A stretch of DNA of 20,038 nucleotides. It comes from a virus. Positions 6,815-20,038 of this stretch are shown one piece after another. The DNA is taken from the IMG/VR virus record IMGVR_UViG_3300046369_000444, positions 1 to 20,038 of that record; one strand, 5' to 3'. The notes below the pieces were generated by a model. It worked only from the letters and a program-made list of their open reading frames with translations. It made no database searches and was not told the origin of the DNA. Numbering within the stretch: position 1 is the first letter of the stretch; each line of letters begins with the position of its first letter. The translations under genes and the position numbers were made by a program.

Positions 6815-9800
6815 TTATCTATCTGTTCTCAAAGTTTGTGAAGTAATTTTTTCTACTATAGATATATCATTTACAGTTGCAGTACTAATAAACAGTTCAT
6901 TAGGTTCTGCTTTTACCTGGAATAAATCTCCAAAACTACCTGCTGTATTTTTAGGAAGTATAACGATACTTCCAACACTTGTGCCTAAGTTTTGGTGTAT
7001 ATAACTTGAAAGTTCTGTAAAATAAAAAGTTTCTCCAAACTCCCAATTATTAACATTAAAGTATTGATTAATCAAAGATATAACTTTTGATTTTACTTCA
7101 TTGTCGCTTAGTGTGGAGCCAGGTAATTTTACTATTTTAAATTTAGCCTGGAAAGTATCATCTGCATCAGCACCAAACAGTAATTTAAATTTAGCACTTC
7201 TGTATACTATTGTATCACTAGCACTTTTAAATTCATTTAATTTTTCAAATTCGTTTGATAGTTCTTCACTTGTAGGTGCTACTGGGTATGCTGTTCCCGG
7301 CACATTTAAATATTTTAAAATTTGCGTATAGTATGTTTGTGTAAGTACAAGCATTTCTACAACGTTACTAATACTAGGATCAATCCTAACATCATTAGGT
7401 GCTGTATGATTCCATTTAATAATAACATTTTGTGGATCTTGTATAGCAGTATTTTGTGTACTTGCTCTACCTTCACGTACTATATAATCTGATGTTTCAA
7501 GTAAAGTAATATTTGTACTTGCAGTACTACTTGCTGTCATTTGATAAACTTTTTTGTTTTCTGTAACATAAACTACCATACCATTATATCTTGATTGTAC
7601 ATTGTTTAATTTTTCTGCTATAGCCAATGTGTCTACTATCAAGTAATCTACTGATGATGCTAATGTTTGATCCACATAACTAGCAGGAGACATAAATTCT
7701 ACATCTGATAAATTAATATCTATTTCGCCTCTGTAATCTAAGAAGTAACCACTTACAGGTCTATCATATGTGTAACCATCAAAATCAGTGTAGTATTCAA
7801 AAAATACTAAACTTTCAGAGTTTACAAAATCATCATACTGCAATGGATCATCTGGTACTAAGTCCTCGTCTGAATCTATAGGTGCTACTTTTACTTTTCT
7901 AGGATCGCAATATCCATCTGCTTCTTTAAATGTATCTGATATTGTCCATTTAATATCTTTATCTAATTTTTCTTTATCGTTCAGATAAATGACTCTTAAT
8001 TTATCAACACTGAAATTTGAACTGCTGTCTGCGGCATGTAAAAATGCGGCTGATGTTTGTAAATCATCATAAGTTAATGTTCCAGTCTGTGCTACAGCAT
8101 TTGCATTTGTGATAGTAATCTTTCCAAGTGCAGATGTGTTAGCAGTACTTCCGTTAATTCCAAACGAGTGGCTAGTTCCGTTAGCAAATGCTTTATAATA
8201 TTCCGATCTTGCTAATCCTGTATTTTCTTGCAAGTAGGTAACATTGCCGTCAGCATCAAATATGTTGTAACCAAATGTTGTATTGTCAAAATCTACAACA
8301 ATCTTTCCTGGAAAATGCTCTATCCTTCCTGATATATTTGCAATAGTAATATTTGTTCTGTCTGCAAATACTGTATTGTCTTCATAGAATGTATTAATGT
8401 TTACTATTGCCTCGTCTACAAATCTATTGTTTAAAAGTACGTTAGCACTAGAGTTCCCTTGACCTCTTAGCAAACCAAATGTACTTTGCCATTCACAATT
8501 TATATCATACCAATAATAATTTCTGCTTCTAAGTGGTATGTTAGGCATTGTTGTACGTGGAGTGTATCTTTCTCCTGTCTCTTGGCTTTCCCATTGTTCG
8601 CCCAAGTTATCATTATCGTTGTCGTACCATTTAAATACTTCCATAGCACCAGGCTTTGTATTAAGTGTATTAAACGTAATAGTATCTCTGACTGCTTTAG
8701 TTGTATTGTCTGTTACTTTAACATTTTTAACATTATAAAACTTTAAGTTATCTTTACTCTGTACAACGTAATCTAAGCCTCTGACAGTAACATTATAACT
8801 GTAAGATGTATTTGATATAGCATTAAATTTGAAGTGTATTATATAACTGGCGTCAGCATTACTATTTGAGGTATCTTTTGCATTTTGATATGAAAAATCT
8901 GGCAGTACACCATTAACAGGTAATGTTAAATTTTCATTCTGTACTATATAATATTCGTCTATTGCTGGGTCATATCCTAAACCAAAATTTCTCTTTGCGT
9001 TTAGTTCTGAAATAATAGCATTTTGTTCTGTCGCTGTGAATGTTTTTCTTAATGTAGAAATTATTTCATTTGCTTTCCAGCCATTTTGTATTGAACTGCT
9101 TAGTGTAATTGGCCCAGTAGACGTACTTAGTCCACTTGATAATTGGCCGTTGTTGTCTATTCTTGTAATTCTTACCCACTTATAGTCTGCTACGTTGTTA
9201 GGATTTGCAAACTTAATAAAGTTGTTTTCCTTAAACATAGATGTTTCTGCTGTCGTATTAATTAATACACTAGTTGTTGCTACTCCAGATGCAACTGTTT
9301 GCTCTGTAATATATCCTGTTGTATTAAATGTTTTAACAGGTAATGTAGCCCAATTAATAGTTCTACCGCTGGTATCAAATGTTGCTGGTGTTGTTTTTAC
9401 TATGCTTTTTCTAAATGTATTATATACAAAATTATTTAATTCTTGTCTTTTTAAATACAACGGAAGAACACTATTTGCTATTTCTGTTGCAGTATTATTT
9501 TCATTTATAGTAAAACTTTCAGACAAGTTATTTTTATCTGCATATATTACACCATCTTCTGCATAAGACTCAATGCTTTGGAATGTACCTGTAGGATCTG
9601 TGATATCAATATATCTACTATGTCCAGCATGTGTCCTATTTGTTGCTTTTAATTTATTAATATTCGAGGACTGGCTAGTTGGAAATACTTGATAGTCCTG
9701 AGCACTTACCATTCTGTTTTGTGTATAGAATGTTTGTGGAGCATTTTGTTTTACTGAGTTTAAAGTTTCTCCTGGTAAACTATTATTAACTGCTGAGCGT

Positions 9801-11002
9801 AAACCAAAACTTAGTGTTAAACTAAATGCCTGTCCTGCCGCATTTTCGTAAGGCAAAACAACACTTAAATTATTTGCATCGTCTGGTTGTATAGAATAAG
9901 AAACTGCATCACTGGTTCTATACCAAACTCTAAATACACCATTAGGTATATTACCAAAGTTTCCATCAGGGAATTTAATTCTTATGCCGTCGTTGTTTAA
10001 GTTCTCAACTGCATAAAGATTTCTTGTACCTAATGTTTGGCTATTAAAGTTTAATGTTTGACCTACTGTATTAGGAATTTTAGTCCACTGATTTAGTACT
10101 GTTCCTCCAGTAGTAATTTCTTGTATGTACACATCTGTTTCATTAATGTTTTGAATATTAATATCTTGTACTCTACTTACTACAGGTGTTGTAAAATCAA
10201 AGTCTTGGAATTGTAAGTTACCCTGCTTAAACAGTAGGAAAAATCCTGTATTATTACTAGCAATGCCTTGACCGTCGTTTCTGTAAAATAAACCAAAATC
10301 ACTTAATGGATCAGGATTACCTTCATAAAAATATTTGCCATCAATAAAATCACCGTTTACAATTTCACAACTTCTATTAACACCATTTGCATTAACATTA
10401 AATGAGTATGAAATAGGTGAACCTATTGTGCTGTTTAGTAAATATTTTTCTGTATTAATATTTGCAACTTTGCCTGTCTTTACAGGTGCAGTAAATCTGT
10501 TAGTACTGCTCATTGCAGAATTTAAAATTGTTATAAATTGTTCGTAACTATCAGGATTATTTGCATCGTCCCAGAAGACTTTTGTATTACTTAATTGGTT
10601 GCCTTGACTGTCTGTTAGAGGCTCTGTTGTAGTTACTGCTGAAAGTTTCATTAATCCACTTGCAGGAATATTTCTTTTAGGATTGTATCCTAACATTCTT
10701 GCTAGTTTAAATACTGAGTCTCTTCTTTCTGCTGTTTCCAAAAAGTTTTCCCTAGTATTAACATCCATTCTGAATGCAATACTGGTACTTAAAAATGCTA
10801 GTAATTCTAGTATAGCAATAAATTCTGAACTTTCTGTATAGTCATTAAAGTTTTCAGGAAAGTTTGTTCTTATATATTCAACAAGTGCTGTTCTGATTGA
10901 GTCGAAATCGTATGCTTGGAAGTCTACTTGACTAAAAACTTTATATGCTAATTTCCAATCTTCCGCCGCAAATAAATTATTTTGTCTATTAACTGTTGCC
11001 AT
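6815..11002 (-). CDS. gp6: Baseplate wedge subunit gp6
   Basis: gp6 dimers form the inner ring of the T4 baseplate that links the wedges round the hub. The N-terminal 120 residues have the family look (residues 44-73 contain a YIRTNFPENFNDY segment, followed by ILELLAFLSTSIAFRMD and NTRENFLETA), and NAPQTFYTQNRMVSAQDY near residues 415-433 is the conserved core motif shared with J-type baseplate proteins. A conserved C-terminal section begins near residue 1205 (IDPSISNVVEMLVLTQTYY). At 1395 residues it is about twice T4 gp6 (about 660), the extra length being a beta-rich, Asn/Thr-rich middle at about 540-1200 with two Asp-rich loops that could bind calcium. The ATG overlaps the gp25 stop (TAATG), indicating coupling. 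The family call is firm. The role of the middle is unknown. Confidence 0.95.
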   Translation of the reverse strand: MATVNRQNNLFAAEDWKLAYKVFSQVDFQAYDFDSIRTALVEYIRTNFPENFNDYTESSEFIAILELLAFLSTSIAFRMDVNTRENFLETAERRDSVFKLARMLGYNPKRNIPASGLMKLSAVTTTEPLTDSQGNQLSNTKVFWDDANNPDSYEQFITILNSAMSSTNRFTAPVKTGKVANINTEKYLLNSTIGSPISYSFNVNANGVNRSCEIVNGDFIDGKYFYEGNPDPLSDFGLFYRNDGQGIASNNTGFFLLFKQGNLQFQDFDFTTPVVSRVQDINIQNINETDVYIQEITTGGTVLNQWTKIPNTVGQTLNFNSQTLGTRNLYAVENLNNDGIRIKFPDGNFGNIPNGVFRVWYRTSDAVSYSIQPDDANNLSVVLPYENAAGQAFSLTLSFGLRSAVNNSLPGETLNSVKQNAPQTFYTQNRMVSAQDYQVFPTSQSSNINKLKATNRTHAGHSRYIDITDPTGTFQSIESYAEDGVIYADKNNLSESFTINENNTATEIANSVLPLYLKRQELNNFVYNTFRKSIVKTTPATFDTSGRTINWATLPVKTFNTTGYITEQTVASGVATTSVLINTTAETSMFKENNFIKFANPNNVADYKWVRITRIDNNGQLSSGLSTSTGPITLSSSIQNGWKANEIISTLRKTFTATEQNAIISELNAKRNFGLGYDPAIDEYYIVQNENLTLPVNGVLPDFSYQNAKDTSNSNADASYIIHFKFNAISNTSYSYNVTVRGLDYVVQSKDNLKFYNVKNVKVTDNTTKAVRDTITFNTLNTKPGAMEVFKWYDNDNDNLGEQWESQETGERYTPRTTMPNIPLRSRNYYWYDINCEWQSTFGLLRGQGNSSANVLLNNRFVDEAIVNINTFYEDNTVFADRTNITIANISGRIEHFPGKIVVDFDNTTFGYNIFDADGNVTYLQENTGLARSEYYKAFANGTSHSFGINGSTANTSALGKITITNANAVAQTGTLTYDDLQTSAAFLHAADSSSNFSVDKLRVIYLNDKEKLDKDIKWTISDTFKEADGYCDPRKVKVAPIDSDEDLVPDDPLQYDDFVNSESLVFFEYYTDFDGYTYDRPVSGYFLDYRGEIDINLSDVEFMSPASYVDQTLASSVDYLIVDTLAIAEKLNNVQSRYNGMVVYVTENKKVYQMTASSTASTNITLLETSDYIVREGRASTQNTAIQDPQNVIIKWNHTAPNDVRIDPSISNVVEMLVLTQTYYTQILKYLNVPGTAYPVAPTSEELSNEFEKLNEFKSASDTIVYRSAKFKLLFGADADDTFQAKFKIVKLPGSTLSDNEVKSKVISLINQYFNVNNWEFGETFYFTELSSYIHQNLGTSVGSIVILPKNTAGSFGDLFQVKAEPNELFISTATVNDISIVEKITSQTLRTDR

Positions 11003-11376
11003 TATGCTTCGTCCGTACTAGTTGTGACATATTCTAAAAATAAGGTATCGCTACTGTTAAGTAATTTGTACTTAATTTGTACCTCTGCTTGTATAGTATG
11101 ATCTAGTACTAATAATTTTGTTGATAAAAACTCTACTCTAGGATCACTTTTTACAATTCTAATGATGTCTTCTTTTATAATTTCTTGTGTTTCAGGGTCT
11201 TCTGGTTCCATAAGGTAATCCCAAATAACACTTCCGAATGTGGGTCTCATTATTCTTTCACCAATTCTAGTATAGAAATGATTAAGTAGATCTCTCTTTA
11301 CTAGATCTGCATCAGTCAGAGTGTAAGGTGCTCTAACTTTATCAACTGTACTAAATCCTTTAAATAATGTTGCCAT
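11002..11376 (-). CDS. gp25: Baseplate wedge subunit gp25
   Basis: gp25 is the small wedge protein that helps nucleate the contractile sheath, related to type VI secretion TssE. This product is 124 residues, against about 132 in T4. It shows the family fold: a DLVKRDLLNHF helix, then GERIMRPTFGSVIWDYLMEP, then a DPR motif (SDPRVEFL) where many relatives have EPR. I chose the ATG at 11374-11376 (MATLFKGFST) over an ATG 21 bases upstream. The shorter start matches marine gp25 N-termini as I recall them, and the longer one would lie inside the late promoter. There is no ribosome site before either start. It is first in a gp25-gp6-giant gene operon and its stop overlaps the gp6 ATG. Confidence 0.93.
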   Translation of the reverse strand: MATLFKGFSTVDKVRAPYTLTDADLVKRDLLNHFYTRIGERIMRPTFGSVIWDYLMEPEDPETQEIIKEDIIRIVKSDPRVEFLSTKLLVLDHTIQAEVQIKYKLLNSSDTLFLEYVTTSTDEA

Positions 11377-11381
11377 GCAAG

Positions 11382-11389
11382 TATTTATC
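11382..11389 (-). promoter_or_regulatory. T4-type late promoter for gp25-gp6 operon
   Basis: On the minus strand this reads GATAAATA followed by CTTGC and then ATG. It matches the T4 late box TATAAATA at seven of eight positions, and the following CT also fits. If the usual spacing holds (last A of the box at -6), +1 is the A of the gp25 ATG, so the message would have no leader. The same eight bases stand before the gp48 operon. Confidence 0.7.
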
Positions 11390-11419
11390 ATATTCATTAT
11401 AACAAGTTTTAATTAATAG

Positions 11420-11448
11420 TTGACTTTGAACCATTTCTAGTATATAAT
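11420..11448 (+). promoter_or_regulatory. Consensus sigma70-type (early) promoter for hydrolase operon
   Basis: TTGACT at 11420-11425, a 17-base spacer and a perfect TATAAT at 11443-11448 make a near-ideal housekeeping promoter. With the -10 box ending at -7, +1 falls on base 11455, which is the A of the hydrolase ATG, so a leaderless message is predicted. It points away from the gp25 late promoter. Confidence 0.85.
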
Positions 11449-11454
11449 CAGAAG

Positions 11455-12060
11455 ATGAAAAATGCTATATACTTACACGGTGCAAATGCCAGCCCAGAAA
11501 ACTTTAATTACTTTACTTTGAAGTTACCTGAGCATAAATTTTTGGCTCCGGCATATGATATGGAAGATGATCCGTTCGATATAGTAGAAATACTAAGAAT
11601 TCGTAAGGAAAGAGAGTTTGGAAAGGAACCTGTTGTGGTTGTAGGACATAGTTTTGGTGGTTTAATTGCTAGTTGGTATGCTAGTGTATATCCTAGGCGT
11701 GTTAAACACTTAGTTACTATTGCAACACCTTGGGAAGGTACGCCTGTAGCAAGAATATTTGGAATGTTCTTTAAAGGAAAAGTATTTCAAAACACTAAGC
11801 CAGGTGCAGATGTGTTGGCTTTACTACAAGAAAAAAACTTTAATGGTAAGCATACTAACATAATATGTACCAGAGGCTCAAACCCTGTTGCTGGCCTAGG
11901 CGGTAAAGCAAACGACGGAATGATATCTTGCGATAGTCAGGGTGCAACACCTCCAGGTTTTAAAAACACTCAAAACATCACAATAGAAGCAGGTCATAGT
12001 GAAGTTTTGTTAAATAATACTGTAACAGACCTGTTACAAAACATAATATTTGAGGAATAA
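11455..12060 (+). CDS. Alpha/beta hydrolase (lipase/esterase-like)
   Basis: A compact 201-residue alpha/beta-hydrolase. What is seen: YLHGA at residues 6-10 (oxyanion-hole HG), the nucleophile elbow GHSFGG with Ser66, HLVTIATPWEGTP after the next strand as in many lipases, NDG with Asp154 as likely acid, and GHSE with His181 as likely base. The triad therefore looks complete and the enzyme should be active on an ester, thioester or amide. The substrate cannot be told. No signal peptide or membrane segment is seen, so it should act in the cytoplasm or at lysis. It stands on the opposite strand to the baseplate genes around it, with its own strong promoter and no ribosome site, which suggests an early-expressed accessory (moron-type) gene. 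The downstream coiled-coil gene starts two bases after its stop. Confidence 0.9.
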   Translation: MKNAIYLHGANASPENFNYFTLKLPEHKFLAPAYDMEDDPFDIVEILRIRKEREFGKEPVVVVGHSFGGLIASWYASVYPRRVKHLVTIATPWEGTPVARIFGMFFKGKVFQNTKPGADVLALLQEKNFNGKHTNIICTRGSNPVAGLGGKANDGMISCDSQGATPPGFKNTQNITIEAGHSEVLLNNTVTDLLQNIIFEE

Positions 12061-12062
12061 AA

Positions 12063-12284
12063 ATGGCTGATATTTCCACACTAAATGACACTCTTGAAGA
12101 AGAGTTAAGACGTATGCTTATTGATAAAAACAATGAGTGTAATAGTTTAAGAACTCATATTGAACTACTAGAAAAAGCAGTAGCAGAAGAACAAGAACAA
12201 AAATACAGGTTGCTTGTTGATAATATGGATTTAAAAAAGGCGTTGGCTTTGATTAGGGATTCTAAAACTACTACAAAGCAATAG
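12063..12284 (+). CDS. Small coiled-coil protein, unknown function
   Basis: A 73-residue acidic protein that I do not recognise. Almost all of it should be helical: from about residue 7 to 65 hydrophobic residues recur with heptad-like spacing (LNDTLEEELRRMLIDK, then LRTHIELLEKAVAEE and YRLLVDNMDLKKALALI), so it probably forms a dimeric coiled coil. A good ribosome site (GAGGAA, 12052-12057) lies in the last codons of the hydrolase gene, five bases before the ATG. The two genes are thus co-transcribed. Its last 14 bases overlap the 3' end of gp5 on the other strand. It could be a partner of the hydrolase or an independent small regulator. There is no evidence to choose. Confidence 0.8.
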   Translation: MADISTLNDTLEEELRRMLIDKNNECNSLRTHIELLEKAVAEEQEQKYRLLVDNMDLKKALALIRDSKTTTKQ

Positions 12285-17906: not shown

Positions 17907-18209
17907 TTAACCTCCTGCTACAGATTTGACAGATTCCGGAGATGGTAATTTAATAGTTATGCCTGCTTTAAAGTCTCTAATAGGATCTTTTAAAATGTCA
18001 GGATTTCGTAATGCAAATACCCACCATAATGATGTAGTGCCGTATACTTTATATGCAAGTATATCCGGTCTGCCTTCCACATCGCTACCAATTTCGTAAT
18101 CTTCGTCGTAAAGGCCTTTAGGCATCCTAGGTAAATTATTTACATCTAGGAAGTTGTCTATAAGTCCTGCGTTTCTTAAGAAACTATTACTGCTGTGAAA
18201 TTTTGCCAT
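17907..18209 (-). CDS. gp53: Baseplate wedge subunit gp53 (short form)
   Basis: gp53 joins adjacent wedges in the T4 baseplate through a LysM-like fold. The 100-residue product shows the recognisable core RPDILAYKVYGTTSLWWVFALRN (around 47-69), followed by DPIRDFKAGITIKLPS, which is the LysM-like part of the family. It is about half the length of T4 gp53 (about 196), so it is close to a minimal version with a short N-terminal arm. The ATG overlaps the gp48 stop (TAATG), and the next gene starts a few bases after its stop, so it is coupled on both sides. Confidence 0.85.
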   Translation of the reverse strand: MAKFHSSNSFLRNAGLIDNFLDVNNLPRMPKGLYDEDYEIGSDVEGRPDILAYKVYGTTSLWWVFALRNPDILKDPIRDFKAGITIKLPSPESVKSVAGG

Positions 18210-19147
18210 TAAATAAATCCGTCCATATATCCATTGCCTGTTGTAAGGCTTGTGATATCATATCTTTTTCTTAGTTTCTGTGGTGTGTAGTTTACTGATA
18301 AGTTGATTGAAATTAGTGCGGCCGTAGGTACATAAGTCACGGTGTCTTCACCGCCCATTTTATAATGTACTGGAACATAATCTATATCTTCTCCATATTG
18401 TATGGAATAATCTTTAATTATAACAGGAACTTTATTAAAACCGTGCTGTCCTAAATATTCAAATAGTAACACAGGCGGTGGTGTTCCTGCTACACCTTGT
18501 GCAACTGAGGATTCACCAGCAAAACTTTTTGTTGCTACTTTTAAGAAAGTTATAATTGCTAACATATATCTTGCTTCGTCGATATTGTTTGCTGTAAATT
18601 CAGAAGCAATAGGAAGTTCAGGAGGTCTACTATTCATATAGGAATGTATTGGATAATTCATACCCTGTAATTCATGTGCCTGATAATTTGCACCAGCAGA
18701 TACAAAAATTTGCGGTGTATATTGCCATACAAGACCACCAGAGTCTATAATAGGTTGCATTATATTTGTGCCACCTACTTCACTCTGATCTGCATAGTTT
18801 ATACCATACACATATTTCTCTCCACCTCTTTTAGGTCGTAATCTAGCTCTCCAATCGTAATTTTGTTGGAGTGGTAATTGGCTTGCTTCGGACTTTAAAT
18901 TTCCAAACTGTTCAGTTTGTTGTTGTAATTCTTGCCTTAACTGAAGCTCACTCAACATCCTAGCACCAAAAAGTAAATTTTGGTCTGGGTTTCTGGGAGG
19001 ATTACTTAATCCAGGTATATAATCTCCAAATGCATTGCCCAAAAGATTACCTGCAATCCTTCTTGCATGAGGATTTTTAATACCACTTAATTTTTGGTTA
19101 GCCTTGGCACCTAAATAGCCACTAGCAATGTTTTTTAAAAAACCCAT
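18209..19147 (-). CDS. gp48: Baseplate tail-tube cap/initiator protein, gp48-like
   Basis: A 312-residue protein, close in size to T4 gp48 (364) and gp54 (320), the two tube-like proteins that cap the hub and start the tail tube. Residues 1-55 are basic and Gly/Asn-rich. The core holds GGLVWQYTPQIFVSAGANY at about 140-158, a helix DEARYMLAIITFLKVATKSF, then PPVLLFEYLGQHGFNKVPVII and IKDYSIQYGEDIDYVP, ending with ALISINLSVNYTPQKLRKRYD. This beta-helix-beta layout is tube-protein-like and is what marine phages have as gp48. I cannot exclude that gp54 is the closer match. It is first in the operon, with a ribosome site AGGAG five bases before the ATG and a late promoter upstream. Confidence 0.75.
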   Translation of the reverse strand: MGFLKNIASGYLGAKANQKLSGIKNPHARRIAGNLLGNAFGDYIPGLSNPPRNPDQNLLFGARMLSELQLRQELQQQTEQFGNLKSEASQLPLQQNYDWRARLRPKRGGEKYVYGINYADQSEVGGTNIMQPIIDSGGLVWQYTPQIFVSAGANYQAHELQGMNYPIHSYMNSRPPELPIASEFTANNIDEARYMLAIITFLKVATKSFAGESSVAQGVAGTPPPVLLFEYLGQHGFNKVPVIIKDYSIQYGEDIDYVPVHYKMGGEDTVTYVPTAALISINLSVNYTPQKLRKRYDITSLTTGNGYMDGFI

Positions 19148-19165
19148 ATATTCTCCTATTACATC

Positions 19166-19173
19166 TATTTATC
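19166..19173 (-). promoter_or_regulatory. T4-type late promoter for gp48-gp53-hub-gp5 operon
   Basis: The minus strand reads CTGATAAATAG, the box being GATAAATA, identical to the one before gp25. With the usual spacing transcription would start near 19160, giving a leader of about 13 bases that still includes the ribosome site AGGAG. gp55, whose T4 counterpart recognises such boxes, is encoded next door. Confidence 0.7.
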
Positions 19174-19243
19174 AGGTTTATTAAAACATGTTATAATATT
19201 CCTATAAACATTTCCAGTTTTCTCCAGATCTGGTAAATATTAA

Positions 19244-19271
19244 TTGACAATGCACTATTACTGTGTATAAT
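19244..19271 (+). promoter_or_regulatory. Consensus sigma70-type promoter for gp55
   Basis: TTGACA at 19244-19249 and TATAAT at 19266-19271 are both perfect, with a 16-base spacer. Transcription should start near 19278, about 33 bases before the gp55 ATG. This fits a gene read by the host polymerase before late transcription begins. Confidence 0.85.
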
Positions 19272-19310
19272 ACTAACAATATAAATGAATTATAATTTTG
19301 AGGAGAGTTC

Positions 19311-20038
19311 ATGGCACAGAAGAAAGTCAATTATCTAAATAATAAAGATATATTAAAAGAAATCCATAAGAGCAAAATGACATACTGCTGGTTAGCAGAT
19401 GAGAATTATGGCTTTTTTGATATCATATTAGAAGACGTTAAAAAGATCAACAGAATCAGTATTAAAGCCGCAAGAGAAAATAAAGCCGCAAAGATGCAGT
19501 ATGACGCATATCAGGCCGCAATGGCATTACATGATCCTAAAGATTACAGAAATAAACCCAAGCAAAAAGAATTTGCTGTAGATCCTAAAAGCATAGCAAA
19601 AGAGGACTTAGTTTTCCGTGTAATGACAATGGAACACATTCCATTAGAACCAGGCAGGAAAAAGAATCCTAGGAACGAAGCAGAAACAAAAGCAAAGGTT
19701 AATTTTCCTCCGTTTATGCATTATGCATACGTTGGTGATGAAATTAAGGAAGTTGCAAGAAGTCATTGGGAAGGTGGCATAGGCAATGGACACTTTAATC
19801 CTGAACACGGAAAGATCACAAATAAATTAGGAACTATGTTTTTAAAATTAGTTGAAAGATATAGTCACAGAGGTAACTGGAGAGGTTATACTTATGTAGA
19901 TGAAATGCGTGGACAAGCATTGCTACAATTAAGTTATATTGGCCTACAGTTTAATGAGCAAAAATCAGATAACCCATTTGCTTATTATACAGCCGCCGTT
20001 AATAATAGTTTTACAAGAGTACTTAACTTGGAAAAAAG
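19311..20038 (+). CDS. gp55: Late-transcription sigma factor gp55 (partial, C-terminus outside window)
   Basis: gp55 binds core RNA polymerase and directs it to late promoters. The frame is open from ATG 19311 to the window end (242 full codons). The N-terminus VNYLNNKDILKEI at 6-18 matches T4 gp55 (NYVNNKELLQAI as I recall it), and GYTYVDEMRGQALLQLSYI (192-210) plus NPFAYYTAAVNNSFTRVL (221-238) match its sigma-region-2-like core. Between these lies a stretch of about 184 residues where T4 has about 50, so there is a large insertion, rich in Lys and Ala at 43-100. A clear ribosome site (GAGGAGAG, 19300-19307) precedes the ATG. It is read from a strong sigma70-type promoter and away from the baseplate operon. 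Confidence 0.9.
   Translation, partial: MAQKKVNYLNNKDILKEIHKSKMTYCWLADENYGFFDIILEDVKKINRISIKAARENKAAKMQYDAYQAAMALHDPKDYRNKPKQKEFAVDPKSIAKEDLVFRVMTMEHIPLEPGRKKNPRNEAETKAKVNFPPFMHYAYVGDEIKEVARSHWEGGIGNGHFNPEHGKITNKLGTMFLKLVERYSHRGNWRGYTYVDEMRGQALLQLSYIGLQFNEQKSDNPFAYYTAAVNNSFTRVLNLEK

Follow-up and report, generated by a model that had tools for sequence, protein, structure and literature searches.

We analyzed a stretch of 20038 nucleotides (hereafter the window), which comprises a whole 20-kb IMG/VR contig of a T4-like phage lineage without a close named relative; a similarity search of the window DNA against named phages gave no match. Along the window, the genes are arranged in the order gp48, gp53, a 951-aa virion protein, gp5 lysozyme, a divergent hydrolase pair, gp25 and gp6. 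No homologue of the hydrolase was found in named phages. The following genes are central to the analysis:
6815–11002, minus strand: gp6-like baseplate wedge protein (open reading frame whose start overlaps the stop of gp25; PA5oct has the same gene order)
11002–11376, minus strand: gp25 baseplate wedge protein (Pfam GPW_gp25, 5.5e-9; phrog_261, 1.9e-14; MATLF start kept in relatives)
11455–12060, plus strand: alpha/beta hydrolase, predicted to be leaderless (Pfam Abhydrolase_1, 4.5e-13; relatives begin MKN/VKN..YLHGA)
12063–12284, plus strand: second gene of the hydrolase pair (Shine-Dalgarno (SD) sequence GAGG at 12052–12055)
18209–19147, minus strand: gp48-like structural protein (phrog_12050, 1.5e-40)
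19311–20036, plus strand, running off the contig: late sigma factor, homologue of T4 gp55 (phrog_12791, 4.4e-77; phrog_234, 3.1e-18)

The gp55 gene (19311–20036) is oriented divergently from gp48 and its product exceeds T4 gp55 in length, the part matching the T4-type profile being preceded by about 160 residues.

Two divergent promoters occupy the intergenic region between gp25 and the hydrolase gene, together with a palindromic element:
11382–11389, minus strand: T4-type late box of gp25, GATAAATA, which spans -13 to -6 relative to the ATG (T4 box position from PMC1524935)
11396–11413, minus strand: 18-bp palindrome ATTAAAACTTGTTATAAT at about -37 to -20, with 6 bp between it and the gp25 box
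11420–11425, plus strand: -35 hexamer TTGACT of the hydrolase promoter, read directly from the sequence
11443–11448, plus strand: -10 hexamer TATAAT of the hydrolase promoter, 6 nt from the ATG

On the minus strand, GATAAATA (11389–11382) is followed by CTTGC and the gp25 ATG at 11376. As the late boxes of T4 span -13 to -6 (PMC1524935), the +1 of the gp25 promoter would fall on the A of the ATG; relative to this inferred +1, a box of the type TATAAATA/NATAAATA lies at -13 to -6, and the phage itself encodes a gp55 late sigma factor. On the plus strand, TTGACT, a 17-nt spacer, TATAAT and CAGAAG lead to the hydrolase ATG at 11455, an arrangement that fits a host sigma-70 promoter (TTGACA and TATAAT, spaced by 16–18 nt). 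The -10 hexamer of sigma-70 promoters occupies -12 to -7, which would place the +1 of the hydrolase promoter on the A of its ATG as well. The sequence-only reading had proposed exactly this geometry for both boxes, and its coordinates were confirmed. It had also seen no ribosome-binding site before gp25 and the hydrolase gene; indeed, no usable SD sequence was found before either start in the window. Conversely, the sites it had described at the second gene of the hydrolase pair (GAGG, 12052–12055) and at gp48 (AGGAG) are present. The motif AGAAG adjoining the hydrolase ATG was considered as an SD sequence and rejected, being too close and not kept in relatives. An in-frame ATG at 11397 was likewise discarded as the gp25 start, since many relatives lack it and MATLF lines up with the starts in relatives and in PA5oct. 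Both gp25 and the hydrolase gene are the first genes behind an adjacent promoter. A terminator was sought between gp5 and gp25 in the window and not found, so a read-through RNA with a long leader may carry gp25 as well.

Next, we looked at the conservation of both spacings among relatives of the window, which were collected via protein searches. For gp25, the distance from box to start is 5 nt in all of the roughly 40 distinct upstream sequences read from relatives, and 44 promoters with an identical layout were gathered. The five nucleotides themselves differ among relatives (CTTGC, CATGT, AAGGT, TGTGT and others), and gp25 keeps its own promoter in relatives whose hydrolase gene sits elsewhere without a promoter. 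At the hydrolase gene, the -10 hexamer lies 6 nt from the start in 24/25 distinct upstream sequences with a clear promoter and 7 nt in the remaining one. These sequences have a spacer of 16 or 17 nt between -35 and -10, share no discriminator sequence and start with either ATG or GTG. Since the surrounding sequence varies while the spacing stays, it is the distance that selection maintains. The box-to-ATG spacing thus held in the relatives, where the sequence-only reading had suggested looking for it. In the loci L086–L093 the hydrolase starts with GTG instead of ATG, with the spacing still at 6 nt; if the model is right, these starts imply that the host tolerates leaderless GUG starts. However, GTG starts are poor for leaderless translation in E. 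coli, and the six hydrolase variants with a GTG start therefore count against the leaderless reading.

The second divergent gap of the window, between gp48 and gp55, provides a leadered internal control:
19166–19173, minus strand: GATAAATA, the gp48 late box, located 18 nt upstream of the ATG; SD sequence AGGAG
19180–19197, minus strand: palindrome ATTATAACATGTTTTAAT, again 6 bp upstream of a late box, here that of gp48
19244–19271, plus strand: sigma-70-type promoter TTGACA-16-TATAAT of gp55, 39 nt before the ATG, with the SD sequence GAGGAG at 19300–19305

In the very phages whose gp25 spacing is constant, the gp48 box lies at variable distances of 17–20 nt from the ATG and is accompanied by a GGAG-type site. 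One relative, G005, has its gp48 box 5 nt from the start.

To place these promoters in a wider context, the distance from each NATAAATA box to the first gene start was measured with a simple gene caller. In the window and 13 relatives taken together, a distance of exactly 5 nt accounts for 28 of about 76 cases, followed by 18 nt with 7 cases; these counts come from related sequences of one lineage and are not independent. A 250-kb relative (G017) has 25/52 late-box genes at 5 nt and the others mostly at 16–39 nt, while a 340-kb distant relative (G014) has 14 of about 53 at 5 nt. No spike at 5 nt was seen with scrambled boxes, and the Poisson probability of the real spike against a uniform spread is about 1e-23; one scramble, ATAAATAN, corresponds to the real box shifted by one base and was disregarded, leaving three true controls. 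Distances of 9–13 nt form a near-empty zone, as expected if RNA starts 5 nt past the box, since leaders of genes at these distances would be too short for an SD sequence. G017 has 29 short distances, none at 10–13 nt and 25 long ones, 22 of which have an SD-like site. Orthologues of G017 and G014 mostly stay in their class (10 short in both, 13 long in both, 3 switched; Fisher 2e-4). A second leaderless late family, phrog_11259, shows 5 nt in 38/59 distinct upstream sequences, the rest being mostly at 6 or 8 nt. Sigma-70 promoters accumulate at 6 nt to a lesser extent, with five cases in G017 and five in G014, including one orthologous pair at 6 nt in both. These distributions indicate that the leaderless geometry is a trait of the whole lineage and not a peculiarity of the gap between gp25 and the hydrolase gene. 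In this marine T4-like family, roughly every second late promoter and some early promoters are placed such that mRNA is predicted to start on the start codon.

Some individual loci deserve mention. In G001, G005, G007 and G008, the leaderless late box of the MSTRLTKALEFANYR gene comes immediately after a hairpin with a T-run that resembles a terminator and isolates the unit. On the minus strand of G017, at about 3377, a leaderless late box precedes a ferredoxin gene of bacterial type; the ferredoxin is nearest to those of marine gammaproteobacteria including SAR86 (63%), a similarity too weak for naming the host.

Altogether, we consider it highly probable that the two divergent promoters of the window initiate on the start codons and that the gp25 and hydrolase mRNAs are leaderless or nearly so (0–2 nt). 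Geometry, conservation, the bimodal distances, the lack of SD sequences and the gp55 gene were observed and make this well supported as a prediction; the exact RNA 5' ends, the timing and the mode of translation are deduced. One possible explanation close to it is that the promoters are real with wobbling initiation, so that transcripts start 1–4 nt further upstream and carry ultra-short leaders which would use the same 5'-end-dependent route. Distances of 6, 7 and 8 nt do occur in relatives, but the modal distance is sharp at 5 nt for late and 6 nt for sigma-70 promoters instead of being smeared, and we regard such wobble as rather unlikely. Still less credence is due to the idea that the AT-rich box is no promoter, and instead acts as an S1-type ribosome-binding or unstructured translation element on a longer read-through mRNA. 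In its favor, the box lies roughly at the SD position and no terminator was found between gp5 and gp25; however, the same box with its palindrome is found 17–20 nt before gp48, which has a separate SD sequence, the box matches known T4 late promoters, and scrambled AT-rich boxes give no spike, leaving it very improbable. Finally, a mere coincidence of spacing in a very AT-rich genome, which does yield many TATAAT-like and ATAAATA words, can practically be dismissed in view of the spacing conserved by relatives and the genome-wide spike.

The palindrome upstream of the gp25 and gp48 boxes follows the consensus ATTAAAAC-NN-GTTTTAAT. Its offset of 24 to the box is constant across 63 distinct promoters, and at this offset on average 6.9/9 dyad pairs are formed, compared to 3.0 at other offsets. 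A 32-bp matrix of palindrome and box gave 33 matches in about 680 kb and 0 in simulated sequence. G017 and G014 hold few copies of the palindrome each, mostly near late boxes; the distance between palindrome and box varies from 3 to 9 in G014 and is not fixed at 6 there. The element is absent from the other leaderless late boxes. As it is kept at gp25 even without an opposing early promoter, it must be counted as part of the late promoter. In T4, late promoters lack a conserved -35 element (PMC2988020); the gp25 and gp48 promoters depart from this rule by the palindrome fixed upstream of their boxes. We infer that it is a candidate operator for late regulation, a site for a dimeric phage regulator. 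Both palindromes of the window have a late promoter on one side and a divergent sigma-70 promoter on the other. Paired, opposed late boxes within one intergenic region were seen at L216 (G001, about 46350–46460) and in G014 (281147–281218), each with a palindrome or half-palindrome. An apparent third class of boxes, whose palindrome would lie at -29, was dropped because most of its members proved to be the gp48/gp55 gap seen from the opposite strand. Matches to a short promoter query were confined to unrelated phages with E>=0.1, one of them within a gene of Melnitz, and were taken as chance.

We further compared the promoters with those of named systems. The late promoters of T4 (TATAAATA; gp55/gp33/gp45) share the class of 8-bp box before baseplate genes and the sigma gene of the gp55 family, but in our count none of their boxes lies at a distance of 0–6 nt, whereas about half of those in the window lineage are predicted to be leaderless, some with the fixed upstream palindrome. 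In cyanophages such as S-PM2 and Syn9, the late promoters (NATAAATA) have a variable first base and the same core as here (PMC2984593); in contrast to the window lineage, boxes at 5 nt number 0 in Syn9 and 1 in P-SSM2. A like layout occurs in the Pelagibacter phage HTVC008M, which has NATAAATA-5-ATG at 9/18 genes including gp25 and gp48. Its independently deposited gene starts lie at 5 nt for gp25 (31132), gp48 (19456), gp2 (18916, minus strand), a tape-measure protein and others. However, this phage is distant and has no palindrome, and its gp48 is leaderless by layout, unlike the leadered gp48 of the window. Among 51 pelagimyophage gp25 genes, the distances are 5 (21), 6 (16), 8 (12), 7 (1) and 9 nt (1), a spread that would correspond to leaders of 0–4 nt. 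The Pseudomonas jumbo phage PA5oct (Arenbergviridae) shares the order gp55 ... gp5, two divergent small genes, gp25 and gp6, and has GATAAATA before gp25, but there the start is a GTG behind a leader of about 25 nt with an SD-like AGGA. Boxes at 5 nt number two each in PA5oct and Melnitz. The PA5oct orthologues of four leaderless G017 genes are leadered, which suggests that leaderless genes are a derived state of the marine lineage. The sequence-only reading had called leaderless starts unusual for a T4-like phage. This stands for T4, Syn9, P-SSM2 and PA5oct and fails for the marine lineage and pelagimyophages such as HTVC008M, in which the leaderless layout is the commonest single late-promoter layout. 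In Deinococcus-Thermus, mycobacteria and Caulobacter, the -10 element is placed such that +1 coincides with the start codon, as described in two reports (PMC12340547, PMC4633059); those cellular genes use sigma-A-type promoters only, whereas here a phage late sigma factor would be involved too.

A plausible course of expression can be drawn from these elements. Early in infection, host sigma-70 polymerase would make the hydrolase mRNA from its AUG and the gp55 mRNA with a 30–40 nt leader containing an SD sequence. Subsequently, gp55 would send the polymerase to the late boxes, and the gp25 mRNA would start at its AUG. The gp25 gene is thus predicted to be the leaderless opening gene of a late unit gp25-gp6, in which gp6 would be translated after gp25 via the start-stop overlap, read here as predicted translational coupling. 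Ribosomes would recognize the 5' AUG/GUG of the gp25 and hydrolase mRNAs directly, and the downstream genes of both transcripts would rely on SD sequences or translational coupling. Late genes of the lineage fall into two classes, with the start either 5 nt past the box and predicted to be leaderless or 16–39 nt past it, mostly with an SD sequence. A more far-reaching version, which we put forward tentatively and think doubtful, is a two-class translation programme in which about half of the late promoters produce leaderless mRNAs for a separate initiation route, and in which a bipartite subset with the 18-bp palindrome is bound by a dedicated regulator replacing or supplementing the T4-type activation by the sliding clamp.

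Leaderless mRNAs are known from some bacteria, from archaea and from few phage genes. No report of a T4-type late sigma factor driving leaderless mRNAs genome-wide was found in the open-access literature, and we regard the lineage of the window as a new variant of T4-type gene expression. The cultured pair of HTVC008M and Pelagibacter ubique HTCC1062 shares the layout and makes a direct test possible. Should the prediction hold, abundant marine phages would make their baseplate, terminase and other late proteins without SD leaders, which would bear on the annotation of gene starts, on the evolution of late promoters and on the question of which ribosomes and initiation factors act late in infection.
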